From contig MGGS01000001.1 in the NCBI GenBank assembly GCA_001792535.1, positions 1-49,694 of the forward strand: a stretch of 49,694 bases of DNA. Reading direction: 5' to 3'. The notes beneath the pieces are model-generated. The model had not been told where the DNA came from, searched no databases, and saw only the letters and a program-made list of their open reading frames with translations. The position numbers and the translations under genes are program-made. This document shows, one piece after another, positions 25,295 through 46,758 of the stretch (within the stretch, counting starts at the first letter, position 1; every line of letters starts with the position of its first letter). This DNA is from Candidatus Woesebacteria bacterium RIFCSPHIGHO2_02_FULL_42_20 (GTDB lineage Bacteria > Patescibacteriota > Microgenomatia > UBA8517).

Positions 25295-25309
25295 TTGGGT
25301 CTCAAAAAT

Positions 25310-27019
25310 ATGCGAGTGCGAATCAAAATACTTTTCATCGTTTTTTGCGTGGCAATTCTGGGGCTTATTGCCAGGCTATTTTACTGGCAAGTTGTCAGAA
25401 ATTCCGAACTTACGGCTTTCGCAAAGCTTCAGCACAGTCTGGGTACGTCAATTTCTGCCTCTCGTGGCAGTATTTTAGGAAGTGACGGTTCGTGGCTGGC
25501 TACAAGTGTCGAAGGCTGGCTTCTGTTTGCACAATTGCCGGATGTGATTTTAGATCCCAAAACAATTGCAAATAAACTCGCGCCTGTATTTGTCGACGAT
25601 AAAGATAACGCAGTTTTACTCGGGGAGACATTAAGAATCGAGGGCCTTTTAGCAAAAGCAGGTGCGGTTTGGGTACCAATAAAGGCCAGAGTAGACAGAA
25701 GTAAAAAAGAACAGATCGAGTCGATGCAAATTTCGGGATTGGGTTTCGAGAGCGAGAATAGACGTGTTTACCCTGAAGGTGAGTTAGCCGGCCAAACATT
25801 GGGTTTTGTGGGAAAGAATGAACAGGGCGAGGATGTTGGCTATTTCGGACTTGAAGGCTATTGGGATTTGGCATTGAAGGGGAAAATGGGTTTTTTGGAA
25901 AGGGAGACGGATGCCATAGGTATCCCGATTATTCACGGTAAACAAACGCAAGTCGAAGCCTCAACCGGTGTGGATGTCGTTACTCATATAGACAAAGGGG
26001 TGCAACTGGTTGTTCAAAAAAAACTTGCTGAAGGCATTGACAAATACGGTGCGAAGGCGGGGACAATCATAGTTATGGACCCATATACCGGAGCGGTAAT
26101 GGCCAACTCGTCCTACCCATTTTACGAACCGCAAAATTATACCGATTACTCAAATGACTATTTCAAAGATTCAGTGGTTTCGGACACTTTTGAGCCGGGA
26201 TCAATATTTAAGGTTTTGGTTATGGCATCGGCGCTTGATGCGGGTGTTATTGAACCAGACACCAAGTGCGACATGTGCAGCGGCGCCTATAAGGTAGACA
26301 AGTATCTGATTGAGACATGGGATGGAAAATACTATCCGGATTCTACGATGACCGATGTGATTGTTCACTCGGATAACGTCGGGATGGTGTTTGCGGCTAG
26401 GCGAATTGGCGCGGATGCTTTGTACGACTATTTAGAAAGTTTCGGAATAGGTGAAGTAACGGGCATTGATTTACAAGGCGAAGTTAGTGTGCCTTTGAGA
26501 GAAAAGAATAGCTGGTCCCAAATTGATTTGGCTACAATTTCATTCGGCCAGGGGGTTGCTGTTACACCAATTCAAATGCTAACCAGTGTCTCGGCAATCG
26601 CAAATGGGGGTACCCTTGTTAAACCCCAGGTTGTTGACAAAGTTGTTCGAGAAGATTGGGTGGAAGACATTAAACCTGAAAATAAACGTAGAGTACTAAG
26701 GCCGGAAACTGCGGCAAAAGTTAAAAATATGATGGTTGAGGCTGCAAAAAATGGTGAGGCGAAGTGGACCAGTTTAAGAGGATTTAAAGTTGCCGGTAAG
26801 ACTGGCACGGCGCAAATTCCAGTTGCCGGGCATTATGATAAAGACAAAACCGTGGGGTCGTTTGTGGGTTTTGCGCCCGCGGACAAGCCCAAGTTTGCTA
26901 TGTTAGTAACTCTTCGTGAACCCGAGTCATCACAGTGGGCTAGTGAAACGGCTGCACCTTTATGGTTTGATATTGCTAAAGACCTGTTTCCCTATTTTGG
27001 AATTACGCCGGGGGAGTAG
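25310..27019 (+). CDS. ftsI: Class B penicillin-binding protein / FtsI (septal transpeptidase)
   Basis: 569 aa from ATG 25310 (MRVRIKILFIVFCVAI); the ORF track uses an upstream TTG at 25295. It has an N-terminal span, then the dimerisation domain with 'GFVGKNEQGEDVGYFGLEGY', then the transpeptidase domain. Catalytic motifs are SxxK 'GSIFK' (Ser298), SxN 'SDN' (Ser354) and 'KTGT' (Lys497). No PASTA domains are present. It cross-links septal peptidoglycan outside the membrane with FtsW, which is encoded about 20 kb downstream. The 3' end contains the murA promoter. Confidence 0.92.
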   Translation: MRVRIKILFIVFCVAILGLIARLFYWQVVRNSELTAFAKLQHSLGTSISASRGSILGSDGSWLATSVEGWLLFAQLPDVILDPKTIANKLAPVFVDDKDNAVLLGETLRIEGLLAKAGAVWVPIKARVDRSKKEQIESMQISGLGFESENRRVYPEGELAGQTLGFVGKNEQGEDVGYFGLEGYWDLALKGKMGFLERETDAIGIPIIHGKQTQVEASTGVDVVTHIDKGVQLVVQKKLAEGIDKYGAKAGTIIVMDPYTGAVMANSSYPFYEPQNYTDYSNDYFKDSVVSDTFEPGSIFKVLVMASALDAGVIEPDTKCDMCSGAYKVDKYLIETWDGKYYPDSTMTDVIVHSDNVGMVFAARRIGADALYDYLESFGIGEVTGIDLQGEVSVPLREKNSWSQIDLATISFGQGVAVTPIQMLTSVSAIANGGTLVKPQVVDKVVREDWVEDIKPENKRRVLRPETAAKVKNMMVEAAKNGEAKWTSLRGFKVAGKTGTAQIPVAGHYDKDKTVGSFVGFAPADKPKFAMLVTLREPESSQWASETAAPLWFDIAKDLFPYFGITPGE

Positions 27020-27042: not shown

Positions 27043-28329
27043 ATGGATATAGTTGTAAAAGGTGGGCAGACGTTAGCCGGTGAGGTTACGCCTTCCGGAA
27101 GTAAGAACTCCGCAGTTGCCATTATACCCGCTACCGTTTTATTTGATAAACCAGTAAAACTTACTAATATTCCGGATATCACCGATGTGGCTTCTCTGGT
27201 CGACATACTTCGCGGTTTCGGTTCCAAAATAAAGTGGGATAAGACCAAAAAAATAATCGATATAGACAATAAAAATTTATCGTTTGAGAAAGTGGATTCC
27301 GAGTCGCTGGGTAAGATGCGCGGAACGTCACTTCTGTGGGGGCCAATGCTCATGCGGTTCGGTAAAGTTAATTTTGGCCAGCTCCCCGGTGGTTGTACTT
27401 TGGGTTTCAGAACTCTGTCTCCGCACTATAAAGCGCTTGAGAGCCTTGGAGTGCAAGTTGCTAATCGCGGAGATGGGGTTGTGATGGATGCCTCGCACGT
27501 TGTGGCTGGTACTGTATGGATGAGTGAAATGAGTCCGACGGCGACAGCAAACGTTATAATGCTTGCGACTGGACTTTCGGGGGTAACAAAGATAGTAGGT
27601 GCGGCCAGTGAACCCCAAGTACAGGATTTATGTAACTTTTTAGCTTCGGCGGGAGCAAAGATTTCCGGAATTGGCTCAAGCGTCCTTGTTGTCGAAGGAG
27701 TCAAAAGTTTAAGTTCGGTAACACACGATATTTTAAGCGATCATTATGAAATTACGACATTTTTAGCTATGGGTGCGGTCACCGGTGGAGAAGTCCGAGT
27801 AAAAAACGCCACGCCTGACTATTTCGGCTATATTAATCAGGTCTTTAGCAAGTTTGGCATAGTGATTTCCTATGACGGTGATACGGCGGTTGTCAAAAAA
27901 GGCCAGAAGGTCGCGCTAAAATATGAAGAAGGCAGAAATTTAATGACTGTCAAGGCACAGCCTTGGCCGGGGCTTCCGGTAGATACATTGCCGCTTTTTA
28001 TTCCGATAGCTTTAACGGCAGCGTCAGGACACGTCTTGTTTCATAATTGGATGTACGAGGCCGGGCTTTTCTGGACTTCCCAGCTGACCAAACTTGGTGC
28101 AAATATTGTGATGGCAGATCCCCACCGTGTTATTGTGCTCTCCGGAAGTAAACTTAAAGGGGCAAAAATGGAAGCACCTTATATTATCCGTGCTACTGTC
28201 GCTATGGTGATGGCAGCAATGGTTTCCCAAGGCGATTCGGAAATATTAAATGCCGAGGCCCTTTATCGCGGACACCCTCATTTTGCCGAAAACCTCAAAA
28301 AATTAGGCGCTTCGATCAAAGAAAAGTAA
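27043..28329 (+). CDS. murA: UDP-N-acetylglucosamine 1-carboxyvinyltransferase
   Basis: 428 aa, EPT fold. 'GSKNSAVAIIPATVLFD' carries the conserved KN of the UDP-GlcNAc site. The fosfomycin-target loop is 'LPGGCTLGFRT', with Cys118 at the position of E. coli Cys115. The catalytic Asp lies in 'PVDTLPLFIPIAL', a divergent form of the FPTD motif. The C-terminal region ('HFAENLKKLGASI') is typical. It catalyses enolpyruvyl transfer from PEP to UDP-GlcNAc, the first committed peptidoglycan step. The stop overlaps the murE ATG by one base (TAATG). Confidence 0.9.
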   Translation: MDIVVKGGQTLAGEVTPSGSKNSAVAIIPATVLFDKPVKLTNIPDITDVASLVDILRGFGSKIKWDKTKKIIDIDNKNLSFEKVDSESLGKMRGTSLLWGPMLMRFGKVNFGQLPGGCTLGFRTLSPHYKALESLGVQVANRGDGVVMDASHVVAGTVWMSEMSPTATANVIMLATGLSGVTKIVGAASEPQVQDLCNFLASAGAKISGIGSSVLVVEGVKSLSSVTHDILSDHYEITTFLAMGAVTGGEVRVKNATPDYFGYINQVFSKFGIVISYDGDTAVVKKGQKVALKYEEGRNLMTVKAQPWPGLPVDTLPLFIPIALTAASGHVLFHNWMYEAGLFWTSQLTKLGANIVMADPHRVIVLSGSKLKGAKMEAPYIIRATVAMVMAAMVSQGDSEILNAEALYRGHPHFAENLKKLGASIKEK

Positions 28330-29750
28330 TGAAATTAACCGATCTTCTTAAGGGTATAAAATGCGAGGTCTTTGGCGGAAAGGATATTAATATAAGTGCC
28401 GTTACGCCGGATTCCAGAAGGGTAAAAAAAAATAGTCTATTTGTCGCTGTTAAGGGCCTCAATGTTGATTCCCATGAATTTATAGATCAGGTTATTGAAA
28501 AAGGTGCGGCAGTTGTTGTCGGCGAGGTAAAGCCGGCTGCCGATTGGCTTGGCAAGATTACATATGTCAAAGTGGCTAACTCAAGAAAAGTACTTGGCTG
28601 CCTTGCAGCTAACTGGTTTGGTAATCCTTCGCGGAAGCTTGCTGTCATTGGGGTAACAGGCACAGACGGTAAGACTACTACCTGTAATTTTATTTATTCG
28701 ATTTTAAACTTTTCCGGTCACAAAACAGGGTTGGTGACGTCGATTAACGCGAAAATTGGAGACAAAAGCCTAGACACAGGTTTTCATGTCACAAATCCTG
28801 AGCAGTTGGAACTTCAAAAAATTTTAAAGCTGATGGTTGATGCAGGCTGCGAGTTTGCAGCTATTGAAGTTACCTCGCACGGACTTGACCAGGAAAGGGT
28901 TGCCGGAGTCGGGTTTAAAGCCGGGCTAATTACCAATGTTACCCACGAGCACTTGGATTACCACAAAACTTACGATAGCTATCTTTTAACTAAAGCGAAA
29001 TTAATGACGATAAGTGATTTTGTGGTTTTGAACAAGGACGACGGTTCATATAGAAAACTTAAAAGAATGGCTCCCGCAGACCATCTTACCTTTTCCATTC
29101 ATGACAACTTCTTGGATAAAAAGACGAATGAGCATTTGGCCCAACTGTTCCCCGGAAACTACAATGTCATGAATGCTTTGGGCGCGGCAGTATTGTGTCG
29201 AAAGTTTAGTATCTTGGACGAGAATATTAATTCAGGTTTACGGGCAATCAGAAAAATCCCAGGGAGATGCGAGAAAGTGGGTAACACGAGAGGTATAAAA
29301 CTTATAGTCGATTTTGCTCATACGCCGAATGGCTTAAAAAGCGTTTTGGCTGTGCTTAAGGCAAGCAGTCAAGGCAAACTTGTTTGTGTATTTGGTTGCG
29401 CTGGTGAAAGAGATCTTTTAAAAAGACCCTTAATGGGTGAGATATCCTCGAAGCTTGCAGATGTTACTGTATTAACTGCCGAGGACCCGAGATATGAGGA
29501 TGTTGACCGGATAATTGCCCAGATAAAAAAAGGGGTAAATGCCAAAAGTAAGGTTATCTGTATACCGGAACGAGGGGAAGCAGTTTGGTATGCTATAAAT
29601 AAAGTTGCCAAGTTAGGCGACACAGTTGTCATTTGCGGCAAAGGCCACGAAAAGTCGATGGCCTATAAGGGGATAGAATACCCTTGGAGTGACCGCAAAG
29701 CGGTCAAACTGGCCTTGGAGGGTAAAATATTTAAGGTAAATCATGGTTGA
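28329..29750 (+). CDS. murE: UDP-N-acetylmuramoyl-tripeptide synthetase MurE
   Basis: 473 aa with the three Mur-ligase domains: N-terminal UDP-binding 'ITPDSRRV'-type region ('VTPDSRRVKKNSLFVAVKG'), P-loop 'GVTGTDGKTTT', and the C-terminal domain. The carbamylated-lysine region is 'DYHKTYDSYLLTKAKLM'. The motif that selects the third amino acid reads TAEDPRYED in place of SDNPRxED; Arg is kept, favouring meso-diaminopimelate, but Asn is replaced by Asp, so the substrate should be treated as open. Cytosolic, ATP-dependent. Overlaps the next gene by 8 nt. Confidence 0.9.
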   Translation: MKLTDLLKGIKCEVFGGKDINISAVTPDSRRVKKNSLFVAVKGLNVDSHEFIDQVIEKGAAVVVGEVKPAADWLGKITYVKVANSRKVLGCLAANWFGNPSRKLAVIGVTGTDGKTTTCNFIYSILNFSGHKTGLVTSINAKIGDKSLDTGFHVTNPEQLELQKILKLMVDAGCEFAAIEVTSHGLDQERVAGVGFKAGLITNVTHEHLDYHKTYDSYLLTKAKLMTISDFVVLNKDDGSYRKLKRMAPADHLTFSIHDNFLDKKTNEHLAQLFPGNYNVMNALGAAVLCRKFSILDENINSGLRAIRKIPGRCEKVGNTRGIKLIVDFAHTPNGLKSVLAVLKASSQGKLVCVFGCAGERDLLKRPLMGEISSKLADVTVLTAEDPRYEDVDRIIAQIKKGVNAKSKVICIPERGEAVWYAINKVAKLGDTVVICGKGHEKSMAYKGIEYPWSDRKAVKLALEGKIFKVNHG

Positions 29751-30314: not shown

Positions 30315-30809
30315 ATGAGATATGCAATGGGTGCTTTAGTAGAGGAGTATGAAAAGCAAGGAATAAGATGGAATGGAAAATTAGTCTTGATTGGAGACAG
30401 TATGGGTGGCGAGGTTATGTCTGTAGTATCTGAAAAGCTTTTTCCGGATGGAGTTATCCTGACCGAACCAGCGGCATATTCTGTATATGCACATCATGTA
30501 AAGTTTGGGAAAAGACATAATGAAGAGCCGGTATTCGGAGGTGATGATGGCGTGATTCGGAGTCGTAAACCCGATGACTCTTTTGCTCTAGAGTCGATTG
30601 GAAAATATATGGGAAAAACCCCCAAAGGAAAAGTGCTTGTCGTTGAGTTTGCTAGCGATAGAATTGTTGGTAAAATACCACAAGACTATAAAGCAAGTGC
30701 AGAAGTAGTTGATTCTATTAGAACGAGTCACCTTTTAACTAAAGGAGAACATGGTGCTACTCCAGCAGAAGAGGTGGAAACAATCAAGAATTTTGTTAAG
30801 AGTTTGTAA
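30315..30809 (+). CDS. Alpha/beta hydrolase, C-terminal fragment with nucleophile elbow
   Basis: 164 aa. It holds the nucleophile elbow 'LVLIGDSMGGEV' (GxSxG), an acid-loop candidate in 'VVEFASDRIVG', and a late His in 'TKGEHGATPAEE', so the catalytic triad lies in this ORF while the first strands lie in the preceding one. The ORF start ATG 30315 is preceded by in-frame codons GTT GCA that read naturally as protein, supporting a split gene over independent translation. Alternatives are a sequencing/assembly indel, phase variation at the TATATA tract, or reinitiation. Substrate unknown. Confidence 0.65.
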   Translation: MRYAMGALVEEYEKQGIRWNGKLVLIGDSMGGEVMSVVSEKLFPDGVILTEPAAYSVYAHHVKFGKRHNEEPVFGGDDGVIRSRKPDDSFALESIGKYMGKTPKGKVLVVEFASDRIVGKIPQDYKASAEVVDSIRTSHLLTKGEHGATPAEEVETIKNFVKSL

Positions 30810-30810
30810 G

Positions 30811-31602
30811 ATGAAATATTTTTATTCGCCAACAAAAGCAGACTATTCAAAATATTTGTTCCCATATCAAGTTTATTTAATTAAAGAGGAAGCTGATAGC
30901 GCTGAAGAGATTTATGCCAAAGGGTTTCTTCCGGTCAGAACGATTTACGATTTGTATTATTTAGCTAGAAGCACCAGAGTTGATTTGGGTAACTTTGAAT
31001 TGTCGAGCGAAAATAGAAGAATACTTCGTAAGGTAGAAAATTTTTATTTCGAAGTTAAAGATATAGATAAGTTTAAGTTGGACGAGAGTGCCCTTAAAAT
31101 AATAAGGCAGTTTGCAAAGTCCAAATTTGATAAGGCACTTTTGAAGGATTCATCCTTAAAAAAGATTTTTTCGGTACTTGGTAACTATAACAAAGTTGCC
31201 TGTTTTTCGGACAAAATAGGCTTGCAAGGCTTGGCTGTTCTTTGTGTAAACGGGAAAACAGTTCACTATGCTCATCCATTTTATGCCATTGATGAACGAT
31301 TTAAGGACCTGGGGTTGGGGATGATGACATCTGTTGTTGATTGGGCAAGCGCGTCTTCCAAGAAGTATGTATACCTGGGGACAGTTTATGGTAAAAGTTC
31401 ACTCTATAAAACTCAATTTAAAGGTTTTGAATTTTTCGACGGCGTTGGCTGGTCTATTGACATTGGAAAATTAAAAGAGATTATTAAACTTGAAGAAGGA
31501 AAGTTTTCAGGCCATCTTTTACAAAACAAGAGTCATATTAAAAAATACTATAATTTCCCGAGTCTGACTAGACTTGTCAAAAAACTCAAATATGAACTCT
31601 AA
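30811..31602 (+). CDS. GNAT-fold aminoacyl/acyl transferase, arginyltransferase (ATE)-like
   Basis: The ORF track starts at 30751 inside the upstream gene; ATG 30811 (MKYFYSPTKADYSKYL), one base after the previous stop, gives 263 aa. 'YYLARSTRVDL' and 'SSENRRILRK' resemble the ATE/Bpt-like family. The C-terminal GNAT-like half has 'AHPFYAIDERFKDLGLGMMT' and 'VYLGTVYGKSSLYKTQFKG', like the product-side loops of aminoacyl-tRNA-protein transferases. Being wedged between MurE and MurC-type genes, it might act on wall precursors as FemX proteins do (same fold superfamily), but this is inference. Confidence 0.55.
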   Translation: MKYFYSPTKADYSKYLFPYQVYLIKEEADSAEEIYAKGFLPVRTIYDLYYLARSTRVDLGNFELSSENRRILRKVENFYFEVKDIDKFKLDESALKIIRQFAKSKFDKALLKDSSLKKIFSVLGNYNKVACFSDKIGLQGLAVLCVNGKTVHYAHPFYAIDERFKDLGLGMMTSVVDWASASSKKYVYLGTVYGKSSLYKTQFKGFEFFDGVGWSIDIGKLKEIIKLEEGKFSGHLLQNKSHIKKYYNFPSLTRLVKKLKYEL

Positions 31603-32914
31603 GAAACCGTGGGTTCACTTCATTGCCATTTGCGGGACAGGGATGGGAGCAGTTGCAGTTGTTCTCAAAAGCAAAGGTTATAGAGTAACAGGCTCAGACA
31701 TAGATTTTTATCCACCCATCAGTGATTTGCTCAGAAAAACCGGTGTGAAAATTGAGACAGGTTTTGATGCAACAAGGATAAGCTCCCAGATAGACATGGT
31801 GGTTATCGGCGGAAGTGCTTTGATTGATGACCGAAACAACCCCGAATTTGTGCAAGCCAAAAAACTTAAACTTCCCATCAAAACCTATCCAGAGTTGATT
31901 GCAGAGTATGTAATTAGGCCGGAGTCAATAGTCGTAGCCGGAACGTACGGTAAAACAACCGTTTCGGCTATGATTGCTTGGGTGTTTAAAAATATGAAAG
32001 TTGACGCAAGTTATTTTGTCCCCGGGATTGCAGTTGACTTGCCAGAGCCGATTCATTTGGGTGAATCAAGTTTTTCTGTTGCCGAAGGAGATGAATATCC
32101 GGCGGCAGTTTTTTTTGATAACGAGTCAAAATTTATGTTTTATAAGCCTAAATTCGTGATTTTAACTTCTGTAGAGTGGGATCACTTTGACGTCTTCCCA
32201 AAAGAAAAAGATTATATCCAAAGATTTGTTAATCTTATGAAAATTGTTCCCAAAGACGGGTTGGTAGTCGCGCCAAGTTCGGGCAAAAACGTTGAGAAGG
32301 TACTAGGTTTTGCCGGCTGTAAAGTAGTTCGTTTCTCAAGTGACAATTTTAGTGAGCAACTCCAAGTAATTGGCAGACACAATAGGGCAAATGCCGCGGG
32401 AGTTTTTACTTTACTTTGTGAATTGGGTTTTCCCAGGGAAGACATAATCAAAGGTTTATCGAATTTTAGAGGTGTCAAAAGAAGATTGGAAGTAATTTAT
32501 AAAGACAAAAACCTTGTAGTAATAAATGACTTTGCCCAGCACCCATCCCGACTTAAGGCCTCAATTGACGCAGTAAGAGAAGAGTATAAGAAACGCCTGG
32601 TCGTGGTTTTGGACCCACACGCGTCGATATTTAAAGACCCGACTATTCTAAAAAAACTTAGTACTGTGTTTGACAAAGTGGACGCTTTATTCATACTAAG
32701 GCTGAAACTTTTAAAAGGTCGCCATAAAGTCACTGGTCCTTTGATAGTTAAAGCAAGCGGACTTTCGGATGTTAAGACTAAATACATTCCCCTTGATGAG
32801 GATTTAGTAAAGGAACTTCTTAACCAAGCCAAAAAAGGAAATTGCGTTATCATGTTTTGCTCAAGCGGGGGGATAGATTCGCTGATCCAAAAATTTGTGG
32901 CTAAATTAAAATGA
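31592..32914 (+). CDS. MurC/Mpl-type Mur ligase (UDP-MurNAc--L-alanine ligase or muropeptide ligase)
   Basis: ATG 31592 (MNSKKPWVHFIAI) is preferred over the TTG at 31574; 440 aa. The N-terminal Rossmann loop 'ICGTGMGAVAVVLKSKGYRV' with 'GSDIDFYPPISDLL' is closer to Mpl, which has YPPMS, than to classic MurC. The P-loop reads 'GTYGKTTVSAM', with Tyr instead of His. 'VEWDHFDVFP' and 'INDFAQHPSRLKASI' match Mpl/MurC central and C-terminal motifs. As no other MurC is in the window, it may be the working L-Ala ligase. It overlaps the upstream gene by 11 nt and the next by 4 nt. Confidence 0.82.
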   Translation: MNSKKPWVHFIAICGTGMGAVAVVLKSKGYRVTGSDIDFYPPISDLLRKTGVKIETGFDATRISSQIDMVVIGGSALIDDRNNPEFVQAKKLKLPIKTYPELIAEYVIRPESIVVAGTYGKTTVSAMIAWVFKNMKVDASYFVPGIAVDLPEPIHLGESSFSVAEGDEYPAAVFFDNESKFMFYKPKFVILTSVEWDHFDVFPKEKDYIQRFVNLMKIVPKDGLVVAPSSGKNVEKVLGFAGCKVVRFSSDNFSEQLQVIGRHNRANAAGVFTLLCELGFPREDIIKGLSNFRGVKRRLEVIYKDKNLVVINDFAQHPSRLKASIDAVREEYKKRLVVVLDPHASIFKDPTILKKLSTVFDKVDALFILRLKLLKGRHKVTGPLIVKASGLSDVKTKYIPLDEDLVKELLNQAKKGNCVIMFCSSGGIDSLIQKFVAKLK

Positions 32915-33615
32915 AGCTGAAGAATTTCCCAAAAACTTATAAGCTCTTGCAGGAGTATTTACACCTTACTTTCGGCAACGCCGATATCGCTTGTCCATAT
33001 TGGATAAACAAGCTTAACCAACACATCCGCGGACCGTTTTCGGGCAAGGGAACACCAAAGCAGATAAAAAAATCGGCTTTAACTCGTGCTTTAAAGCGGA
33101 ATATAAATTTAGCCAAGCTTAGTAGAAGGCAAATACTTATTTTTTTGAGACAAAACAGAATCGGTGTTGACTGTTCGGGGTTTGTTTATAATTTGGCAAA
33201 TTACCTGGACAAAGAAAAAGGTGGAGAGGGCCTTGCCCGCAAACTATTTAACAAAAAAATTTTCCCCCGTTGGAACCCAGCTTGGCGTACAAGTGTGCAG
33301 ATACTCACAAGTAATGCCAAAACTAGAGAAATAAAATTGTCAGATATCCGAGTAGGCGACCTGATCAGATTAACAAGCGGAAGGCACGTTTTGTTTGTCA
33401 TAGACGTCACCGGGAAATATATTACCTACGCGCATTCATCGAAGTTTCTCACTAAAAAATCTGGGGTCCATTTGGGAAAAATAAAAGTAACTGACCGGTT
33501 AAAAGGTTTAGAAGACCAGCTCTGGCTTGAAAAGACTCCGAAAGGAGAAAGTTTTGGTAAAAAATATTTTGATCCCAGCCAGGGCGATTCTCTTCGAAGG
33601 TTTAATTGGTGGTAA
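32911..33615 (+). CDS. NlpC/P60-like (CHAP-like) cysteine peptidase-fold protein
   Basis: 234 aa. The central motif 'RIGVDCSGFVYNLANYL' is the NlpC/P60 nucleophile helix. 'RVGDLIRLTSGRHVLFV' supplies the strand and His, and 'YITYAHSSK' the next strand. The family cuts peptide bonds in wall stem peptides. There is no signal peptide or membrane span, unlike secreted endopeptidases; the N-terminal 85 residues are basic and unassigned. It is ATGA-coupled to the MurC/Mpl-type ligase, suggesting a cytosolic role in stem-peptide recycling or amide hydrolysis (inference). Confidence 0.65.
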   Translation: MKLKNFPKTYKLLQEYLHLTFGNADIACPYWINKLNQHIRGPFSGKGTPKQIKKSALTRALKRNINLAKLSRRQILIFLRQNRIGVDCSGFVYNLANYLDKEKGGEGLARKLFNKKIFPRWNPAWRTSVQILTSNAKTREIKLSDIRVGDLIRLTSGRHVLFVIDVTGKYITYAHSSKFLTKKSGVHLGKIKVTDRLKGLEDQLWLEKTPKGESFGKKYFDPSQGDSLRRFNWW

Positions 33616-33617: not shown

Positions 33618-33770
33618 TTACTTCTCTTCCTCTAAAATCTCGATTTTGAGCGGCTTTTTAGAGAGCAGCTCACACTCGGCGCCGCAGTTCCCGCATTCAA
33701 TAATTTCTCCAATGGCGGCGTCCCTGGGAATGACTAAATCAGTTAAGCAATCGGGACATTTGGTTTTCAT
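33618..33770 (-). CDS. LysW-like amino-group carrier mini-protein (no EDWGE tail)
   Basis: A 50-aa ORF too short for the track, found by reading the minus strand. It starts MKTKCPDCLTDLVIPRDA, then 'IGEIIECGNCGAECELL', and ends KPLKIEILEEEK. The CPxC...ECxxCGAE zinc ribbon and the 'PLKIE' strand follow the LysW/ArgW pattern of Thermus and archaeal lysine biosynthesis closely. The conserved C-terminal EDWGE, whose last Glu carries the substrate amino acid, is absent; the protein ends in an acidic EEEK. It is divergent from the PLP enzyme at 33787 with only 16 bp between start codons. Carrier function is therefore uncertain; a structural zinc ribbon is the alternative. Confidence 0.7.
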   Translation of the reverse strand: MKTKCPDCLTDLVIPRDAAIGEIIECGNCGAECELLSKKPLKIEILEEEK

Positions 33771-33774
33771 AAGT

Positions 33775-33780
33775 TATACT
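33775..33780 (+). promoter_or_regulatory. -10 element (TATACT) 6 nt before the PLP-enzyme ATG
   Basis: TATACT with a possible -35 GGGACA at 33753-33758, spacing 16. The ATG follows after 6 nt, implying a leaderless transcript. It overlaps the opposing -10 of the LysW-like gene. Confidence 0.5.
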
Positions 33781-33786
33781 ATAACA
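33778..33786 (-). promoter_or_regulatory. Extended -10 (TGTTATAGT) 7 nt before the LysW-like ATG
   Basis: On the minus strand, TGT-TATAGT lies 7 nt before the start codon, with TTGCCT at 33801-33806 as a candidate -35 at spacing 17. Three bases are shared with the opposing -10, so the two promoters probably compete. Confidence 0.5.
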
Positions 33787-34632
33787 ATGGATTACGAAGA
33801 AGGCAACACACCTATCAGGCAAATCAATGGTGTGTATTACAAATTGGAAACGGCCAACCCCACCGGGTCGGTTAAAGACAGAGGCATTTCTTTTCAGGTT
33901 TGGAAAGCAATTGGTACCGGCTTTAGTAAGTTTTGCATCAGTTCGTCCGGGAACGCCGCGATATCAGCGGTAACGTATGTCGGCTTGGCAGGCGGAACCT
34001 TGGATGTTTTTGTGAGCCGAAAAATTAATAAAGGCAAGCTTAAAAAAATAATCGGCAAAGACGTAAAGGTTCATTTCAGCCAAAAAGCAGTTAGCGAATG
34101 TATGCAGTTTGCCCAAAAAACGAATGCATATAATCTTCGCGCCTCCCAGGATCCCAATGGCTGGGTAGGCTACATGTCTGTTGCTTACGAGCTTGATTTT
34201 AAACTTGGTAAGTTAGGTGCAGTTTTTATTCCCGTTTCCAGCGGTACACTGTTTTATGGCGTGGCGCGCGGTTTTGACAAAATTGGCTATTTACCTACGT
34301 TGCATGCCGTACAAACTCCATATTGCAACTTCATTGCGAGCAAATTTGATAAAGATTTTAAACCAAGCCAGAGTAGTCTTGCCGACGCGCTGGTTGCAAA
34401 AACAACACCTTTAAAATCCGGTGTAGTTTCTTTGATTAAAAAATCCAAAGGTTTTGGTTGGGTCGTGTCGGATAATGAAATAAAAAAAGCTTGGGTGGAG
34501 TTATACGGAAAGGGTTTGGATACGTCATACGAAGGCGCGGCTTGTCTGGCCGCATACCGAAAAGCGCTCGGCAAGAAATTTAAGGTAAAAGAACCAATTG
34601 TTTGCTTAATTACTGGAAGATATTACGGATAA
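33787..34632 (+). CDS. Threonine-synthase-like fold-type II PLP enzyme
   Basis: The ORF track runs from 33646, but that part is antisense to the LysW-like gene; ATG 33787 gives 281 aa, beginning MDYEEGNTPIRQINGVYYKL. 'ANPTGSVKDRG' carries the PLP-binding Lys (residue 30) and 'ISSSGNAAISA' the substrate-carboxylate loop, both characteristic of threonine synthase and its relatives. 'VFIPVSSGTLFYGVA' takes the place of the phosphate-cup GGGGL loop. It is shorter than threonine synthase (about 350-480 aa) and lacks its N-terminal domain. Substrate unknown; cysteate-, diaminopropionate- or threonine-forming reactions are all possible. It overlaps the convergent UbiA gene by 27 nt. Confidence 0.75.
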   Translation: MDYEEGNTPIRQINGVYYKLETANPTGSVKDRGISFQVWKAIGTGFSKFCISSSGNAAISAVTYVGLAGGTLDVFVSRKINKGKLKKIIGKDVKVHFSQKAVSECMQFAQKTNAYNLRASQDPNGWVGYMSVAYELDFKLGKLGAVFIPVSSGTLFYGVARGFDKIGYLPTLHAVQTPYCNFIASKFDKDFKPSQSSLADALVAKTTPLKSGVVSLIKKSKGFGWVVSDNEIKKAWVELYGKGLDTSYEGAACLAAYRKALGKKFKVKEPIVCLITGRYYG

Positions 34633-35496
34633 AACAAACCAGATTAAAATTGCAGCATTCATTGCAAAATAACCGGGTTGCTGCACTCCGCCGATTTTAA
34701 ATTCAATTTTTCTATCTGAAAGGTCTTTATCGGTTTTGAAAACAAAAGAAAAGACGGCAACGATTGGAGCCACAATCAAAAACCACCAAGGAATAATACC
34801 TTTGCTTAAGGCTATTAAAATGCAAATTATTCCCGCTACGAGCGAAAGCTTGGCAAGCAAAAGCGCGTTTTTTTTACCCAAAAGAATGCTCGTGTTTTTG
34901 AGCCTTGCTTTTTTGTCGGCAATAAAATCACGTAACTGGTTATATATTTGCCCGTAACTGGATATAAAAAAGGCTGCGGCGACCAAGTAACCTGCTGTGT
35001 CAAGACTGCTTGAGTAGGTGTAAAATGAGGTCAGAATCAGCATGCTTCCAAGCATCATGGCATGGCTAGCAATGTCTACAATAGGCCATTTTTTGAGTCT
35101 TACAAATTTACTTGAATAAAGGTAGGAAAGAAGTATATTGGCACTTCCTAGCCAAAAAACAGGTCCACCGATGTAATAGAAGGCAAAAAAGGCGACCAGG
35201 GCGACTGACATAGACAATAAATAGCCTGTTCGTTTGGTTAGTGCGCCGCTGGCTATGGGATTTTTGACCAGTTTGGCTGTTATGAACTTGTCGTCTTCGG
35301 CATCCTCGACATCGTTTAGCATGAATGCGAAGGCAACCGTCGCGATGTTACCGATTAAGACAGCATATAACCTGTAGTCAAAAACCGAAATGTCTGCCCT
35401 ATTAGAAAGTAATGGCCCCAGAAGTGTGAGCGGTAGAACAAAAAGTAGATATTCCTTCCAGCGAGTCAGAAGCAAAACACCCTTGACTGTATTCAT
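34606..35496 (-). CDS. UbiA-family polyprenyltransferase
   Basis: 296 aa with eight to nine membrane spans. Two Asp-rich motifs are present: 'NDVEDAEDD' in the first cytosolic loop and 'NQLRDFIADKKARLKNTS' in the second, spaced as in UbiA proteins. The enzyme joins a prenyl diphosphate to an acceptor in the membrane. In bacteria without quinones the relatives include decaprenyl-phosphoribose synthase and archaeal-type lipid enzymes; the acceptor here cannot be told. The start has a TATAAT 6 nt upstream (leaderless pattern). Convergent with the PLP enzyme. Confidence 0.85.
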   Translation of the reverse strand: MNTVKGVLLLTRWKEYLLFVLPLTLLGPLLSNRADISVFDYRLYAVLIGNIATVAFAFMLNDVEDAEDDKFITAKLVKNPIASGALTKRTGYLLSMSVALVAFFAFYYIGGPVFWLGSANILLSYLYSSKFVRLKKWPIVDIASHAMMLGSMLILTSFYTYSSSLDTAGYLVAAAFFISSYGQIYNQLRDFIADKKARLKNTSILLGKKNALLLAKLSLVAGIICILIALSKGIIPWWFLIVAPIVAVFSFVFKTDKDLSDRKIEFKIGGVQQPGYFAMNAAILIWFVLSVISSSN

Positions 35497-35502
35497 GGAT
35501 TT

Positions 35503-35511
35503 ATTATACCA
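35503..35511 (-). promoter_or_regulatory. Extended -10 (TGGTATAAT) 6 nt before the UbiA ATG
   Basis: A perfect TGN-TATAAT on the minus strand, with the ATG after only 6 nt. Predicted leaderless transcript. Confidence 0.6.
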
Positions 35512-35526
35512 ATATTAATTTTACTA

Positions 35527-35556: not shown

Positions 35557-35562
35557 TAAATA

Positions 35563-38735: not shown

Positions 38736-38745
38736 TCGGGTTTTT
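38721..38745. terminator. Bidirectional intrinsic terminator between ATP-cone gene and murB
   Basis: AAAAACCG-GTTTAGT-CGGGTTTTT: a short stem with one bulge flanked by an A-run on one side and a T-run on the other. It overlaps the stop of the ATP-cone gene and abuts the murB stop, so it would serve both convergent genes. Confidence 0.6.
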
Positions 38746-39826
38746 AGATAATATTAACTTCTGGCTCGAGTTTAAGATCGTAGTTTGTATATATATCTTC
38801 TTGCATTTTTTGAGAAAATTCCAATATTTCTTGGCCCGTGGCATTCCCGTGATTAATAATAACTAAAGCATGTTTTTCGAAAGTTCCCACATTTCCTATT
38901 CGCTTACCTTTCCAACCAAGTTCGTCTAGCAGCCTGCCGGCTGGGATTTTGACGTAATTGGCCATCTTAAAAATCGGGTCATCGGGGTCGGGATAAAGCA
39001 TTTCGTTGACTGGATATGCCTGAAGATTAGGTACCACTTTGAGTAGTTGGCGATATTTATTTTTAGTGACTACCGGATTTTTAAAAAAACTTCCCGCGGT
39101 ACCGACTTTTGTCCAGTCAGGCATTTTAATCCTGCGTAGGTTGGTAACAGCTTGGGCGACGATTTTTGGAGTGAGATTGTTTAGGTCTGGAACAATTTTA
39201 ATAAGCTCTTGTTTAAGTGATTCGTATGGAGCGCTGCCAAAATAGTCTGTGCTAAAGTGAGGTGTTTTTGACAACTTGACTGAAACCGAAGTAATAAAGA
39301 ATTTATTTTTGAGTTCGTGCTTAAAAATGCTGTCTCTGTAATAAAATTTACATTCGTTTTTTGTAATGGTTTCTAATTTGTTTGTGTCCAAACTGATGCC
39401 TTCAACCTCTTTTGTCACCGCTCCAAAATTTTGGCCATAGGCGGCAAGGTTTTGAACGGGCGCGGCCCCTATTGTTCCGGGTATCAGGCTAAGGTCTTCA
39501 ATTCCCGATAATCTGTTATTTACAGACCACATTACAAACTTGTGCCAGTTTTCTCCTGCGTTTACTTTGACTAAGACCTCTTTTGTGTCATCGCTCAGTA
39601 TTTGTTTTTTTGGAATAGAGATCTTGATCACCAATCCGTCAAAATTTTGTGTGAAGAGGGTATTTGTCCCGTCGCCCAAAATATGGAACTTTTCTACTTT
39701 TAAAAGCGAACTTTTGCTAATTTCCCGCAAGTCTTCACGCTTTTTTATTTCTACAAAGTATTTCGTCTTGATATTAACTTTGAAGGAGTTAAGCCTTTTT
39801 AGGTTATAGTCGGTAATAATTTTCAT
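38744..39826 (-). CDS. murB: UDP-N-acetylenolpyruvoylglucosamine reductase, type I
   Basis: 360 aa. FAD domain: 'FHILGDGTNTLFT' (variant of LGxGSNxL), 'VNAGENWHKFVMWSV', 'LSGIEDLSLIPGTIGAAPVQNLAAYG'-type strand (IPGTIGAAPVQN). The catalytic Arg lies in 'FYYRDSIFK', the Ser loop is 'GSFFKNP', and the last Glu is in the C-terminal 'LEPEV'. The type I insert with Tyr is present. It reduces the MurA product to UDP-MurNAc with NADPH. It is on the strand opposite to all other mur genes in the window. Confidence 0.92.
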   Translation of the reverse strand: MKIITDYNLKRLNSFKVNIKTKYFVEIKKREDLREISKSSLLKVEKFHILGDGTNTLFTQNFDGLVIKISIPKKQILSDDTKEVLVKVNAGENWHKFVMWSVNNRLSGIEDLSLIPGTIGAAPVQNLAAYGQNFGAVTKEVEGISLDTNKLETITKNECKFYYRDSIFKHELKNKFFITSVSVKLSKTPHFSTDYFGSAPYESLKQELIKIVPDLNNLTPKIVAQAVTNLRRIKMPDWTKVGTAGSFFKNPVVTKNKYRQLLKVVPNLQAYPVNEMLYPDPDDPIFKMANYVKIPAGRLLDELGWKGKRIGNVGTFEKHALVIINHGNATGQEILEFSQKMQEDIYTNYDLKLEPEVNII

Positions 39827-39879: not shown

Positions 39880-41169
39880 ATGTCCAAGCCATTTTTCTTT
39901 ATTTCCTCTGATCCTTTTAGGGCAGTTGGCTTGGCACTATTTACAAGCGATTTTGTCTTGATATGCGAAAAGCACTCTTACGTTGTTGACTGGCTAAGCC
40001 GTCGGGGAATAAAGGCTTTGGTTTTAAAATCTAACTACAACAACAGCGGCAAAATTCTTGCGGAAGCGAAAGTGGGCAAATTTATTTCAGATTACTCGGG
40101 CGGTATCACTCCCGAAATTTTGGTGTTTAAGCCATCTGCAAAAATTGACTTACTAGCCAGAAACAAAGGCTATAAGTTGCTTGCCAACAGTGCGGTACTA
40201 AATAAAAAGTTCGAGGACAAGACAAGTTTTTATAAACTTTGCCTTGACAATAATCTGGAAGTTCCAAAAGGGTTCGTAGCTAGGTTTGGGGAGGTCGATT
40301 TCGAAAGAGCTAAAAGTAAATTGGGTTTACCTCTTGTAATTCAATTCGGTAGGGGTTGGGCAGGCGGAACCACTTTTTTTATAGCCAACGCCAAAGATTA
40401 TTTGAGTCTTCAAAAGAAATTCCATAAGACCAAGGTAAAGTTTTCACAAAAGGTCGAAGGTATTACTGTCCTTAATAATGCGTGTATTACAAGTGATGAT
40501 CAAGTATTGGTTAGTCAGCCCGCCATTCAATTGTCAGGTGCGCTCTTTGGCCAGAGTGAAGCTGTGACTTTCGGTAGGCAATGGGGTGGGAACTTAATAC
40601 CCGACGAGCAAGAGGCTAGAATTGCCACAATCACCAAGAAGGTAGGACACATTATGGCGCAAAGCGGATATAAAGGCTGGTTTGGCTTGGATTTTATACT
40701 AAGCACTGACGGAGAAGTTGTACTCTCTGAAAACAATGCCCGGCTGACTGCTTCCTTTTCTTTTTATACGCAACTTGAGGTATTAAACGGATCTGATGTC
40801 ACTTTGTTGGCGAGTCACATAGCCGCTTTTGCCCAGAGAATAGCTGGTAGTTGGCATGTTCCTAAAGTGGTTGGCTCTCAAATTAGCTTGAGAACCGGCT
40901 CGCGAGGAGAAAAAGTTGTTAAAAAAAGTTTGCAAGCAGGTATTTATGGCCGTGATCTTAAATACAGGCGCGACGGGGTAGGTTTGGTGGATTTAACCGA
41001 TCAAAGCGAAGTTTTTATTAACTTTCCGGATTACGGCACTCTATTGCCGCAAAATAGTCAGCTGGTCACTATTGAAACTCGTAACCAAGTGCTTAAGAAT
41101 GAGCATAATGTTTACCCTTGGCTAGCTAAAGTAGCAAAGTATACGGAAAGTAATATACTTTATGAATAA
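39880..41169 (+). CDS. ATP-grasp ligase of unknown substrate
   Basis: 429 aa. The N-terminal 90 residues are a Rossmann-like pre-ATP-grasp domain ('LICEKHSYVVDWLSRRGIKA'). ATP-grasp core: 'LGLPLVIQFGRGWAGGTTFF' (the Lys of the glycine-rich flap is not evident), 'YKGWFGLDFILSTDGEVVLSENNAR' in part, where ENNAR is the metal-binding ENxR motif, and a C-terminal domain of about 120 residues. The fold joins a carboxylate to an amine or thiol through acyl phosphate. It is not a recognisable Ddl, yet it sits between murB and murF where Ddl often lies. 8-nt overlap with the next gene. Confidence 0.75.
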   Translation: MSKPFFFISSDPFRAVGLALFTSDFVLICEKHSYVVDWLSRRGIKALVLKSNYNNSGKILAEAKVGKFISDYSGGITPEILVFKPSAKIDLLARNKGYKLLANSAVLNKKFEDKTSFYKLCLDNNLEVPKGFVARFGEVDFERAKSKLGLPLVIQFGRGWAGGTTFFIANAKDYLSLQKKFHKTKVKFSQKVEGITVLNNACITSDDQVLVSQPAIQLSGALFGQSEAVTFGRQWGGNLIPDEQEARIATITKKVGHIMAQSGYKGWFGLDFILSTDGEVVLSENNARLTASFSFYTQLEVLNGSDVTLLASHIAAFAQRIAGSWHVPKVVGSQISLRTGSRGEKVVKKSLQAGIYGRDLKYRRDGVGLVDLTDQSEVFINFPDYGTLLPQNSQLVTIETRNQVLKNEHNVYPWLAKVAKYTESNILYE

Positions 41170-41863
41170 GAATGTTGTTCTGATACATGGCTGGGGTTCT
41201 TCGACTTTGAAGTTGGATAAGCTGTCAATGGACTTGGAAGAGCTTGGTTGGCAAGTGTTGTTACTGCCACTTCCCGGCTTTGATTTACAGCCTCCAAGTA
41301 CAGTATGGGGAGTGAAAGAATACGCCGACTACATTTACAAAGAGTCGTCAAAATTTTTTAATGGGTCACACTTTGTTGTCTTTGGCCATTCATTTGGGGG
41401 TAGAGTGGCAATTAATATTGGCGCAAGAAGGTTACCTGCTACCGAGGGAATTGTTTTGTGCGCAACTTCGGGTGTTTCAAGAGGAAATAAAGCTAAAAGG
41501 TTTGTATTTAGCACACTTGCCAAATCTGGCAAAATTATTTTGGGTAAGAGGCCGAGAAAACTCTTTAAGAGCTTTCTTCATAAACTTTCCCGTGAGCATG
41601 ATTATGAAAAGTTGGAAGGGGTAATGAAAGAGATTTTTAAAAAAGTGGTAGCCTACGACTCACTACCAGAAGTCAAGAAGATTAAAGTGCCCGTTTTCAT
41701 TATTTGGGGGGATAGTGACCGTATGACACCTTTGGCTGACGCAAAGAAACTAAAATCTTTAATCGGCCGTTCTAAGCTGTACGTTTTTAAAAATTTGGGT
41801 CACACCTTGCCTTACGTACGGCCAAAACAAATTGCAAAATTAATTGACCAATGGAAAATATAG
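41162..41863 (+). CDS. Alpha/beta hydrolase
   Basis: 233 aa, complete. 'VVLIHGWGSSTLKLDKL' is the oxyanion strand, 'FVVFGHSFGGRVAI' the nucleophile elbow (GHSFG), 'FIIWGDSDRMTPL' the acid, and 'LGHTLPYVRP' the catalytic His. All triad residues are in place. Cytosolic, no signal. Between the ATP-grasp ligase (8-nt overlap) and murF (13-nt overlap), it is surely co-translated with wall genes. Its substrate may be an ester or amide made nearby, but there is no direct evidence. Confidence 0.85.
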   Translation: MNKNVVLIHGWGSSTLKLDKLSMDLEELGWQVLLLPLPGFDLQPPSTVWGVKEYADYIYKESSKFFNGSHFVVFGHSFGGRVAINIGARRLPATEGIVLCATSGVSRGNKAKRFVFSTLAKSGKIILGKRPRKLFKSFLHKLSREHDYEKLEGVMKEIFKKVVAYDSLPEVKKIKVPVFIIWGDSDRMTPLADAKKLKSLIGRSKLYVFKNLGHTLPYVRPKQIAKLIDQWKI

Positions 41864-43422
41864 TTGATTTGGTAATAAAACTAGTCCTTATTGCCCAGAT
41901 AGTTTACGAGTCTCTTGTCATTACCTATTGGGTGCAGCAAAAAGAATATCGTTGGGACAGATTTAGAAGTTTTGTTAAAAGCAGGGAGGGACTGTTTACC
42001 CTTAATGTTCACTTTATAGCCGCTAAAGTTGCTTCGTTGTTTTTTTTGCCGTTTTTAATTTCTCTGATTATTGTCGGCTTTATCCTATTAGTTTACTTAG
42101 ACAAGATTAGGACGAAGGGTCTTACAAGGCCAATTTTTACTTTAAGAGCAAGAGAGGTCTACTTGACCCTAGTTAGCCTTGCGTTTTTGGCGAGTGCCGT
42201 CGGCAGTATTATCTTTGCTCAGTTAAGCCTGCTCATTTCGCCCATCATTGGTGTTTATTGGTCGGGTCTCCTTGTCAGGCGAACACTCAGAAAGGAAGTT
42301 TTACAGGCAGAAGCTGTTTTTAGAAATGTCAAGCCAAAAGTTGTTGGAGTCACGGGCAGTTATGGCAAGACTACAACTAAGGAATTTATTGCTACCCTAC
42401 TTTCACGAAAGTATGTTGTTGCCAAAACAAGAGGTGGAGAAAATACTCTTTTTGCTATAGTTCGCACAATTATCCATAATTTGCCCGGCAGCACTCAAGT
42501 TTTTGTTGTTGAGATGGGCGCCTATAAGCGGGGGGAAATTAAACACATAACTGATATAGTTCGACCAACTATAGCAGTCGTGACCGGTATTGAACCTCAG
42601 CACTTGGATCTGTTTGGGTCAATTAAAAATATCCAACTGACCAAATACGAACTTATAGAAAGTTTGGGAAAAGGCGGCGTTGCCGTCCTGAATTATGGCA
42701 ATAGTTATTGCAGGCAAATAGGGCAGTGGGCAAAAGAAAGCGGCGTAAAAGTTTTAAGCTATTGCCTTGGCCCAAGACAGAGAAGTCTGGCTGTGGATTT
42801 GTCTGCCCGAGTTTTGGAAATGTCGGGCAAGGGTGTAAAGGTTGAATTTGATTATAAAAATAAAAAGAAAACACTTGAATTTAAATTTGCTGGAGCGCAT
42901 TTTGTCGAAAACGCAATGGCGGCAATATTAGTCGCTTTTGTGATGGGATTAGACTGGAAAGACGTGGGTAAAGTGAGCGATGAACTATCCACATATGAGA
43001 AAACTATGAAGGTATATAAAACAAAAAGCGGGGCGACTATAATTGATGATTCGCACAACAGTACTCCCAAGGCCTTTGAAGCGGCACTAGCGTATCTTGA
43101 CGAGTTTCAAGGAAGAAAAACTGTGTTCACGCCTGGAATTATTGAATTAGGATCTGTTTCAGACAAAGTTCATACTAGGTTGGGTAAGCTATTGGCTTCA
43201 AAGGTAGACGAAGTAGTTTTGACAAGAAAAGGATTCGAGTCGGCACTAAAAAAGGGCCTTGGAAGCTCCGTTAAAATACTTAAGATTTCTGATGGGAATC
43301 CTAATTATTTAAGCGAGTTGTTTAAAGAAAGTGCTACTCAAAAAGGTATTATTATTTTATTGGAGGGAAAAATGCCTAAGGCGATTTCATATCAATTGGA
43401 GAATCTTGAAACAGATGTTTGA
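41851..43422 (+). CDS. murF: MurF-type Mur ligase with N-terminal membrane domain
   Basis: 523 aa. Residues 1-140 hold about four hydrophobic helices ('LVIKLVLIAQIVYESLVITYW', 'VASLFFLPFLISLIIVGFI', 'YLTLVSLAFLASAVGSIIFA', 'LSLLISPIIGVYWSGLL') in place of the usual UDP-binding domain. The Mur core follows: P-loop 'GVTGSYGKTTTKEF', 'RGGENTLFAIVRTI', 'VEMGAYKRGEI', 'GIEPQHLDLFGSI', and the C-terminal 'IIDDSHNSTPKAFEAAL', a variant of MurF DDxYNAN. It would add the D-Ala-D-Ala-type dipeptide, at the membrane. Overlaps the hydrolase by 13 nt and the DegT gene by 8 nt. Confidence 0.82.
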   Translation: MENIVDLVIKLVLIAQIVYESLVITYWVQQKEYRWDRFRSFVKSREGLFTLNVHFIAAKVASLFFLPFLISLIIVGFILLVYLDKIRTKGLTRPIFTLRAREVYLTLVSLAFLASAVGSIIFAQLSLLISPIIGVYWSGLLVRRTLRKEVLQAEAVFRNVKPKVVGVTGSYGKTTTKEFIATLLSRKYVVAKTRGGENTLFAIVRTIIHNLPGSTQVFVVEMGAYKRGEIKHITDIVRPTIAVVTGIEPQHLDLFGSIKNIQLTKYELIESLGKGGVAVLNYGNSYCRQIGQWAKESGVKVLSYCLGPRQRSLAVDLSARVLEMSGKGVKVEFDYKNKKKTLEFKFAGAHFVENAMAAILVAFVMGLDWKDVGKVSDELSTYEKTMKVYKTKSGATIIDDSHNSTPKAFEAALAYLDEFQGRKTVFTPGIIELGSVSDKVHTRLGKLLASKVDEVVLTRKGFESALKKGLGSSVKILKISDGNPNYLSELFKESATQKGIIILLEGKMPKAISYQLENLETDV

Positions 43423-45678: not shown

Positions 45679-45702
45679 TTTCTTGTATAATAAAACTTGA
45701 CG

Positions 45703-46758
45703 ATGTCCGGAACAAATTCCTTAAGCCTGATTTTAGGGTTAGTTCTTTTTTCCTTTTCGTTTACGAGTGTTCTTATTGTTCCGTTTATAGATATTTTATA
45801 CAAGCTTAAGTTTCTTCGTTTTAAAGAAGCTCCTAAGCTGGGTAAGGTGCCGTTAATCGATAAACTTTTGGACAAAAAAGCCGGAGTACCGACCGGCGGG
45901 GGGATATTGCTCGTAGCCATTGTTACTCTGCTGTTTTTGATACTGATTAGAATTCTTTCTTCTTCAGGTTTCTACATACAATCCTCTCACAACCTTTACT
46001 GGGAGATTTTCATATTGATTTTTACATTTATATCTTTTGCTCTATTGGGCTTATCTGACGATTGGCTAAAAATATTTGGTAAACCCAAAAAAGGAACTCT
46101 AGGGTTGTGGTTTGGGTTAAATCGGAAACTAAAATTCATCCTACAATGGACGCTTGGTTTTACAGTCGCTTTTCTGATTTACCATTTTCTGGGTATAAGT
46201 ATTGTTCATATTCCGGTTATAGATAAAGTTATTAATTTAGGGGTATTTTATATACCCTTGGCGGCCTTAATAATTGTTTTTTTTGCAAATGCTTTTAACC
46301 TCACCGACGGCCTTGACGGTTTATCTTGTGGTTTGTTGCTAATATTTCTAGTCTCCTACATTTTTATTACGGCCACAGCTCTGGACACACCCCTTTCTGT
46401 TTTTATTTCTTTGTGGATAGGAGCCCTGATCGCCTTTCTCTATTTTAATGTTTGGCCTGCGAGAATTATTTTGGGTGACACTGGCGCACTGTCCTTCGGT
46501 GCAACGGTTGCGGTTATAGGTTTACTGACCGGGAACATTGCGGTAGTCTTTGTGATCGGTGGCCTGTTTGTGATTGAATTGGTTAGCTCCGCGATACAAA
46601 TACTTGGTTGGAAGACACTGAAAAGACCACTATTGCCGCTTGCGCCTATTCATCACACCTTTTTAGCAATAGGTTGGGAAGAACCAAAAATTGTTACCAG
46701 AGCTTGGTTGGCTGGAATAATTTTAGCTATTCTAGGTTTATGGTTGTCGACGGTTTAA
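45703..46758 (+). CDS. mraY: Phospho-N-acetylmuramoyl-pentapeptide transferase
   Basis: ATG 45703 (MSGTNSLSLILG) is preferred to the TTG at 45697; 351 aa, ten membrane spans. Signature motifs: 'GVPTGGGILLV', 'GLSDDWLKIFGKPKKG' with the Asp pair, 'FANAFNLTDGLDGLS' with the catalytic Asp, 'GDTGALSFGA', and 'LPLAPIHHTF' with the HHxF of MraY. It makes lipid I from UDP-MurNAc-pentapeptide and undecaprenyl phosphate. A TATAAT at 45686-45691 upstream is a possible -10, without a matching -35. ftsW follows after 3 nt. Confidence 0.93.
   Translation: MSGTNSLSLILGLVLFSFSFTSVLIVPFIDILYKLKFLRFKEAPKLGKVPLIDKLLDKKAGVPTGGGILLVAIVTLLFLILIRILSSSGFYIQSSHNLYWEIFILIFTFISFALLGLSDDWLKIFGKPKKGTLGLWFGLNRKLKFILQWTLGFTVAFLIYHFLGISIVHIPVIDKVINLGVFYIPLAALIIVFFANAFNLTDGLDGLSCGLLLIFLVSYIFITATALDTPLSVFISLWIGALIAFLYFNVWPARIILGDTGALSFGATVAVIGLLTGNIAVVFVIGGLFVIELVSSAIQILGWKTLKRPLLPLAPIHHTFLAIGWEEPKIVTRAWLAGIILAILGLWLSTV

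Follow-up and report, generated by a model that had tools for sequence, protein, structure and literature searches.

The stretch of DNA analysed here (the window) comprises positions 1 to 49,694 of contig MGGS01000001.1 of Candidatus Woesebacteria bacterium RIFCSPHIGHO2_02_FULL_42_20 (assembly GCA_001792535.1), a member of the Patescibacteriota with a 1.08 Mb, 98% complete genome. It contains two head-to-head genes, one for a LysW-like zinc ribbon, here designated LysW-K, and the other for a fold-type II pyridoxal 5'-phosphate (PLP) enzyme, which are accompanied by genes for an NlpC/P60-like amidase, a divergent Mur ligase and an ATE/Fem-like transferase and, at a distance, an ATP-grasp ligase, all within a cell wall gene cluster that points to a role of the pair in peptidoglycan precursor synthesis (Table 1). 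A preliminary description, made from the letters of the window, had proposed the ribbon and the 281-aa enzyme as a possible reduced carrier-based route. The two genes lie as given there, with the PLP open reading frame (ORF) starting at ATG 33787 and separated by 16 bp (33771-33786) from the ribbon ORF.

The 50-aa ribbon ORF (33618-33770, minus strand) encodes MKTKCPDCLTDLVIPRDAAIGEIIECGNCGAECELLSKKPLKIEILEEEK and is the sole LysW-like gene of the host genome. Upon LysW profile search it passes the gathering cut-off of PF21344 (Zn_ribbon_LysW, the LysW globular domain; 37.1 bits vs 27), which substantiates the initial assignment as a LysW-type zinc ribbon; the NCBIfam LysW models match below cut-off (45.6/75 and 29.6/53.2 bits), and the family profile of the ribbon matches the solved LysW structure 3wwl (E 1e-11).

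The pairing of the two genes, which the preliminary description had put forward, is indeed conserved. Among 95 relatives, seven genomes possess both genes, in all cases adjacent and divergent, while across 380 genomes sampled from the phylum the ribbon is found in 37 (matches weaker than about 1e-8 excluded), the PLP enzyme in 35 (ordinary long threonine-synthase-like matches excluded) and both in 34, leaving three genomes with the ribbon alone and one, 82% complete, with the PLP enzyme alone (Fisher p about 7e-44 for a sample that is not phylogenetically independent). The PLP homologues on the genome contigs were recovered by an alignment-based scan, a single-sequence scan having given nothing. 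All 29 pairs less than 500 bp apart are divergent, as are the remaining five at 1.3-4.2 kb. This orientation, constant in every pair locus even over 1-4 kb, could itself be maintained by selection, or else the block may travel as one unit. Pair-bearing genomes include Shapirobacteria, Gottesmanbacteria, Magasanikbacteria, Gracilibacteria and Peregrinibacteria, and the pair occurs outside Patescibacteria in one Dormiibacterota metagenome-assembled genome (MAG).

The C-terminus is the distinguishing feature of the ribbon. In all 30 aligned pair-linked ribbons the four cysteines and the C-terminal lysine are invariant and the linker is variable, with tails such as EEEK, IEEK, DEEK, DEGK and others, and every further pair-linked locus read beyond these 30 ends in lysine as well. 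Ribbons in genomes without the PLP gene terminate in the canonical EDWGE (G069, G081) or in EDWGQ (G131), and EDWGE-tailed ribbons of the same class do not lie beside this PLP gene (for example at locus L027). Invariance of the lysine despite the variable linker argues that the tail is a selected, conserved feature and not mere loss of EDWGE. The missing EDWGE had thus been recognized correctly at the outset, but underrated, since an invariant lysine has taken its place (30/30). With the amino-group carrier protein (AmCP) pathways for lysine, arginine and vazabitide-type products, the module shares the LysW-fold ribbon, an acidic flexible tail, an ATP-grasp partner and, as proposed here, work on a tethered amino acid. 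It differs from them in the terminal lysine instead of the EDWGE glutamate that is the LysW attachment site, in the lack of a recognizable LysX, for which no match is found in the window and only a single one among the loci (L046, 15.8 bits), and in the presence of the PLP enzyme, NlpC/P60 protein, Mur ligases, ATE/Fem-like transferase and wall context. A reduced LysW pathway for lysine or arginine, suggested by the LysW homology of the ribbon, is accordingly highly improbable, being already contradicted by the tail, an ATP-grasp ligase that is not LysX-like, the wall context of most loci and the absence of true EDWGE ribbons of the same class beside this PLP gene.

A Mur ligase is located near the pair in nearly all loci, MurD-like in Gracilibacteria, Gottesmanbacteria and Dormiibacterota and MurC/Mpl-like in Shapirobacteria, Magasanikbacteria and the window. 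The 34 module genomes, compared with 46 genomes without the module, 36 of which bear MurD, were divided into type 1, which keeps canonical MurC (n=5), and type 2, in which canonical MurC was not found (n=29). All five type-1 genomes combine canonical MurC with a divergent MurD-like ligase beside LysW-K; the MurD-like ligases keep a lysine at the position of E. coli Lys348, where the L-Glu-specific MurD2 has arginine. In most MurC/Mpl-like loci a third gene encodes a protein of GNAT-like ATE/Fem fold, the AlphaFold2 model of which has ATE1 and FemX as top Foldseek matches, with ATE_C over cut-off in the relative L023. On the assumption that such a transferase adds L-Ala in the stead of MurC, it was expected in type 2 only, a prediction written down before the search; the gene was found in 26/29 type-2 genomes, in 0/5 of type 1 and in 0/46 controls. 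While it has the fold of ATE1/Bpt and FemX, the module protein differs from these in being short, divergent, restricted to module genomes and next to Mur ligases. In two of the three type-2 genomes without it (G401, G434), a gene of the DgcN-like family (DUF1611) is found next to the MurC/Mpl-like ligase or in its vicinity. DgcN is part of a pathway converting D-Glu to L-Glu (PMC10845958).

By comparison of gene neighbourhoods, the ATP-grasp ligase and the cytosolic NlpC/P60 peptidase are assigned to the same module as the pair. The suspected involvement of the ATP-grasp gene about 5 kb away is corroborated by the relatives, in most of which it follows the PLP gene directly. In the window, UbiA-like, LytR/CpsA/Psr and DUF2130 genes lie between the two (34606-38404), a separation that none of the other loci read shows; the contig of the nearest relative ends there. 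The protein is nearest to PRK06524 and its AlphaFold2 model, with a predicted local distance difference test score (pLDDT) of 92, is identified by Foldseek as an ATP-grasp fold. As the family profile retrieves only generic ATP-grasp relatives from the PDB, including BesA, and the fold search is generic as well, with one L-amino-acid ligase among many, the substrate of the ligase cannot be read from these searches. The NlpC/P60-like gene is located upstream in type-2 loci and codes for a protein without evident signal peptide; the catalytic Cys, Asp and His are invariant in 18 family members. In type-1 loci, a gene combining SH3 and NlpC/P60 domains, with clear NLPC_P60 matches, precedes the MurD-like gene. 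The dipeptidyl-peptidase VI YkfC recognizes L-Ala-gamma-D-Glu via Tyr226, Trp228, Asp237 and Ser239 (PMC2954226), a set that is complete in five of six inspected type-1 proteins, L156 being without the Trp. In the type-2 proteins Pro-Tyr and Asp-Cys are kept, Ser nearly always and Trp variably, and profile search against the PDB gave only weak matches, to MepS/Spr. The module enzymes resemble YkfC as cytosolic NlpC/P60 proteins, those of type 1 also in the SH3 domain and the gamma-D-Glu residues, but are tied to biosynthesis genes, while the known enzymes recycle murein peptides (PMC2954226).

In 27 members of the PLP enzyme family, the PLP lysine (S28-V-K30-D-R) and the carboxylate loop SS(S/T)GN are conserved, including the Ser/Thr before Gly-Asn (27/27), the hydroxyl of which presumably takes the position of the second base in serine racemase. 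Threonine synthases also carry a hydroxyl at that loop position, so the loop does not discriminate between racemase and threonine synthase, and the family profile matches threonine synthases, serine racemases and aspartate racemases. The label threonine-synthase-like, used in the preliminary description, does not hold as a function. That the enzyme is a threonine synthase, with the ribbon unrelated, is suggested by the best NCBIfam matches, which are threonine synthases; these all score far below cut-off (top model 129 bits vs 301), the pairing is conserved, and homoserine dehydrogenase (PF00742) was not found in 32/34 module genomes, the host genome among them, so that this identity was rejected and we give it next to no weight. 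Despite common fold, PLP lysine and loop, the enzyme differs from threonine synthase and serine racemase by its length of 281 aa, the missing N-terminal extension and the genome without homoserine dehydrogenase; against the threonine synthase PRK06450, the match starts at profile position 56, such that an extension of about 55 residues is missing. This truncation, together with the head-to-head pairing, which suggests a complex, would fit a module without covalent loading, in which LysW-K serves the PLP enzyme or a Mur ligase as adaptor or subunit, the PLP enzyme is a plain soluble racemase and the ATP-grasp protein is a MurD substitute that ligates Glu. We regard this alternative as unlikely, as the ribbon is LysW-like and matches no threonine synthase model, the invariant lysine that closes an otherwise variable tail is in keeping with a site of attachment and the NlpC/P60 amidase would have no obvious substrate. 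Racemization of free Glu by a soluble PLP enzyme is nevertheless a live rival to epimerization on the carrier.

The module occupies the slot of murI-murD between mraY and ftsW in the division and cell wall cluster. Fourteen type-2 loci have the order mraY-(nlpC)-lysWK/PLP-ATPgrasp-ftsW, usually followed by murG, where the control loci (L145, L146, L149, L150) read mraY-murI-murD-ftsW-murG (G062, G073, G086) or mraY-murD-ftsW-murG (G084). The host genome encodes MraY, MurG, MurA and MurB, together with a proper MurE and a transpeptidase of FtsI type; MurC is not found over cut-off, and MurD and the known D-Glu enzymes are missing. In none of the 34 module genomes was MurI (glutamate racemase) detected over cut-off, with weak partial superfamily matches only, nor MurL, with one weak partial match in G078, nor a canonical full-length MurD, the only strong MurD-like matches being the genes beside LysW-K. 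Aminotran_4, the D-amino-acid transaminase family, was not found in the host genome nor in 25/34 module genomes. Of the 36 MurD-bearing controls, 24 have MurI or MurL, never both (Fisher p 4e-10, uncorrected for relatedness; MurI is counted in 13 genomes, among them G061, whose match of 131 bits falls just short of the cut-off). The module is reminiscent of the MurD2/MurL pathway (PMC8788868) in that MurI is replaced and epimerization is proposed to take place on bound Glu rather than on the free acid, but the MurD2/MurL reading itself was rejected as MurL is absent from 34/34 module genomes. With MurI, MurL and canonical MurD all missing, the second stem residue is not fixed as Glu, and the ATP-grasp and PLP enzymes are without close characterized relatives; the carrier might in the same wall role make or modify another amino acid (e.g. 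D-Asp or an unusual diamino acid) that is extended by MurE. The ordinary MurE of the window, over cut-off, the gamma-D-Glu residues kept in the type-1 NlpC/P60 proteins and the D-Glu-type lysine of the MurD-like ligases make a residue other than Glu rather improbable.

Table 1. Genes of the module and its surroundings in the window, with the DgcN-like genes of two other genomes
Feature	Position	Strand	Remarks
FtsI/PBP2-type transpeptidase	25295..27019	+	context
MurA	27043..28329	+	context
MurE, full-length	28329..29750	+	TIGR01085 446 bits, over cut-off
ATE/Fem-like aminoacyl-tRNA transferase, proposed L-Ala adder	30784..31602	+	AlphaFold2/Foldseek match to ATE1, FemX
Divergent MurC/Mpl-like ligase with UDP-binding domain, proposed to join product to UDP-MurNAc	31574..32914	+	TIGR01081 242 bits, TIGR01082 241.5 bits, both below cut-off
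Cytosolic NlpC/P60-like cysteine amidase, proposed release enzyme	32911..33615	+	weak NLPC_P60 match; motifs PYW, GVDCSG, H159
LysW-like zinc-ribbon carrier (LysW-K)	33618..33770	-	50 aa, tail LEEEK; PF21344 E 2.4e-9
Fold-type II PLP enzyme (PALP), proposed epimerase of carrier-bound Glu	33787..34632	+	281 aa; PALP E 5e-43
MurB	38744..39826	-	NF000755 347 bits
ATP-grasp ligase, proposed carrier loader	39880..41169	+	429 aa; NCBIfam PRK06524 E 1.4e-23; adjacency in relatives
MurF-like ligase, different N-terminus	41851..43422	+	TIGR01143 224 bits; PF08245 and PF02875 only
MraY	45697..46758	+	TIGR00445 173 bits; FtsW directly after; murD, usual in this slot, missing
FtsW	46762..47850	+	context
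MurG	47854..48951	+	context
DgcN-like gene, G401	L175:11701-12813
DgcN-like gene, G434	L178:4269-5336

Cumulatively, a wall role of the module is well supported, and the guess of a wall-related carrier route in the preliminary description gains support from the cluster position, while a route of lysine/arginine type does not; missed at that stage was that the NlpC/P60 peptidase, Mur ligase and ATE/Fem-like transferase next door form one system with the pair, a system that takes the place of murI, murD and, for the most part, murC. We see roughly even chances that the pair forms the core of a carrier-protein module substituting for these genes in peptidoglycan precursor synthesis, with Glu loaded and epimerized on the carrier. 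The lysine-ended carrier, the fold-type II PLP enzyme, the ATP-grasp ligase and an amidase family specific for gamma-D-Glu would together suit such a scheme. Acylation of the lysine epsilon-amine is known from ATP-grasp ligases, for example PylC and D-aspartate ligase. The module ATP-grasp ligase would attach L-Glu via its side-chain carboxylate to the lysine that ends LysW-K, in the simplest case at the epsilon-amine, which would mimic the gamma-D-Glu-Lys bond of the stem peptide, whereupon the PLP enzyme would epimerize the tethered residue, with alpha-amino and alpha-carboxylate groups free for binding, to D-Glu. In type 2, including the window, the ATE/Fem-like transferase would then place L-Ala from tRNA on the alpha-amine; for ATE-type transferases, the acceptor is the alpha-amine of an acidic residue. 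Subsequently, cleavage of the gamma-D-Glu-Lys bond by the cytosolic NlpC/P60 enzyme would release D-Glu in type 1 and L-Ala-gamma-D-Glu in type 2, to be joined to UDP-MurNAc-L-Ala by the MurD-like ligase or to UDP-MurNAc by the MurC/Mpl-like ligase, respectively, and the ordinary MurE would continue.

The comparisons establish which genes belong to the module and that these are conserved, the terminal lysine of the ribbon, the location within the wall cluster and the lack of MurI, MurL and canonical MurD and, in most genomes, of MurC; each chemical step, the identity of Glu and the attachment atom are inferred. Several observations weigh against this route. The YkfC-type Trp228 is not kept in many type-2 NlpC/P60 enzymes, and 9/34 module genomes possess an Aminotran_4 gene, a possible D-amino-acid transaminase. 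Seven of the 36 MurD-bearing controls (G050, G055, G084, G093, G110, G164, G258) are likewise without MurI over cut-off, MurL or Aminotran_4, so that a D-Glu source other than the enzymes searched for may exist; gene absence alone is therefore a weak argument, and the case rests on position, mutual exclusion and the split into type 1 and type 2. In addition, all evidence is comparative, and as the genomes are related MAGs, the p-values overstate independence. An outlier is G097 (L177), where the pair is present with a ribbon tail LGK, neither an ATP-grasp nor an NlpC/P60 gene is adjacent, an ATE-like gene is missing and a very divergent MurC-like ligase is encoded elsewhere in the genome.

Among bacteria with a wall, the provision of D-Glu and the reactions of MurC and MurD count as near-universal. 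It is conceivable, with chances somewhat short of even, that many Patescibacteria (and, for the core pair, at least one organism outside the lineage, in the Dormiibacterota) build the first stem residues on a carrier made by the ribosome, at its C-terminal lysine, and then move them to the sugar nucleotide, in type 2 with tRNA-dependent supply of L-Ala, and not on UDP-MurNAc by MurC and MurD with free D-Glu. If true, this would amount to a new type of route to peptidoglycan precursors, explain how many reduced ultra-small bacteria that have mraY, murG and ftsW can be without murC, murD and murI, and carry amino-group-carrier chemistry over from the making of amino acids into that of the cell wall, the anchor being inverted (lysine). 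A literature search, incomplete in coverage, returned nothing that links LysW to Patescibacteria or to threonine synthase and ATP-grasp, or that links Patescibacteria, glutamate racemase and peptidoglycan biosynthesis; with such coverage, the novelty of a carrier route is not proven.

With respect to the surroundings of the module, the window has two ORFs of 188 and 164 aa, neither with a clear family match, between MurE and the ATE-like gene (29743-30784); in the sister genome G001 this place is taken by a second NlpC-like gene together with a MurE-type Mur ligase without UDP domain. Furthermore, in two genomes without the PLP module but with MurL, a LysW-like ribbon without C-terminal lysine adjoins a MurD-like gene (L151 of G138, tail EDEV; L152 of G324, tail DGDF), in G138 with MurL adjoining the same MurD-like gene; the ribbon is possibly put to a similar use alongside Mur ligases there.
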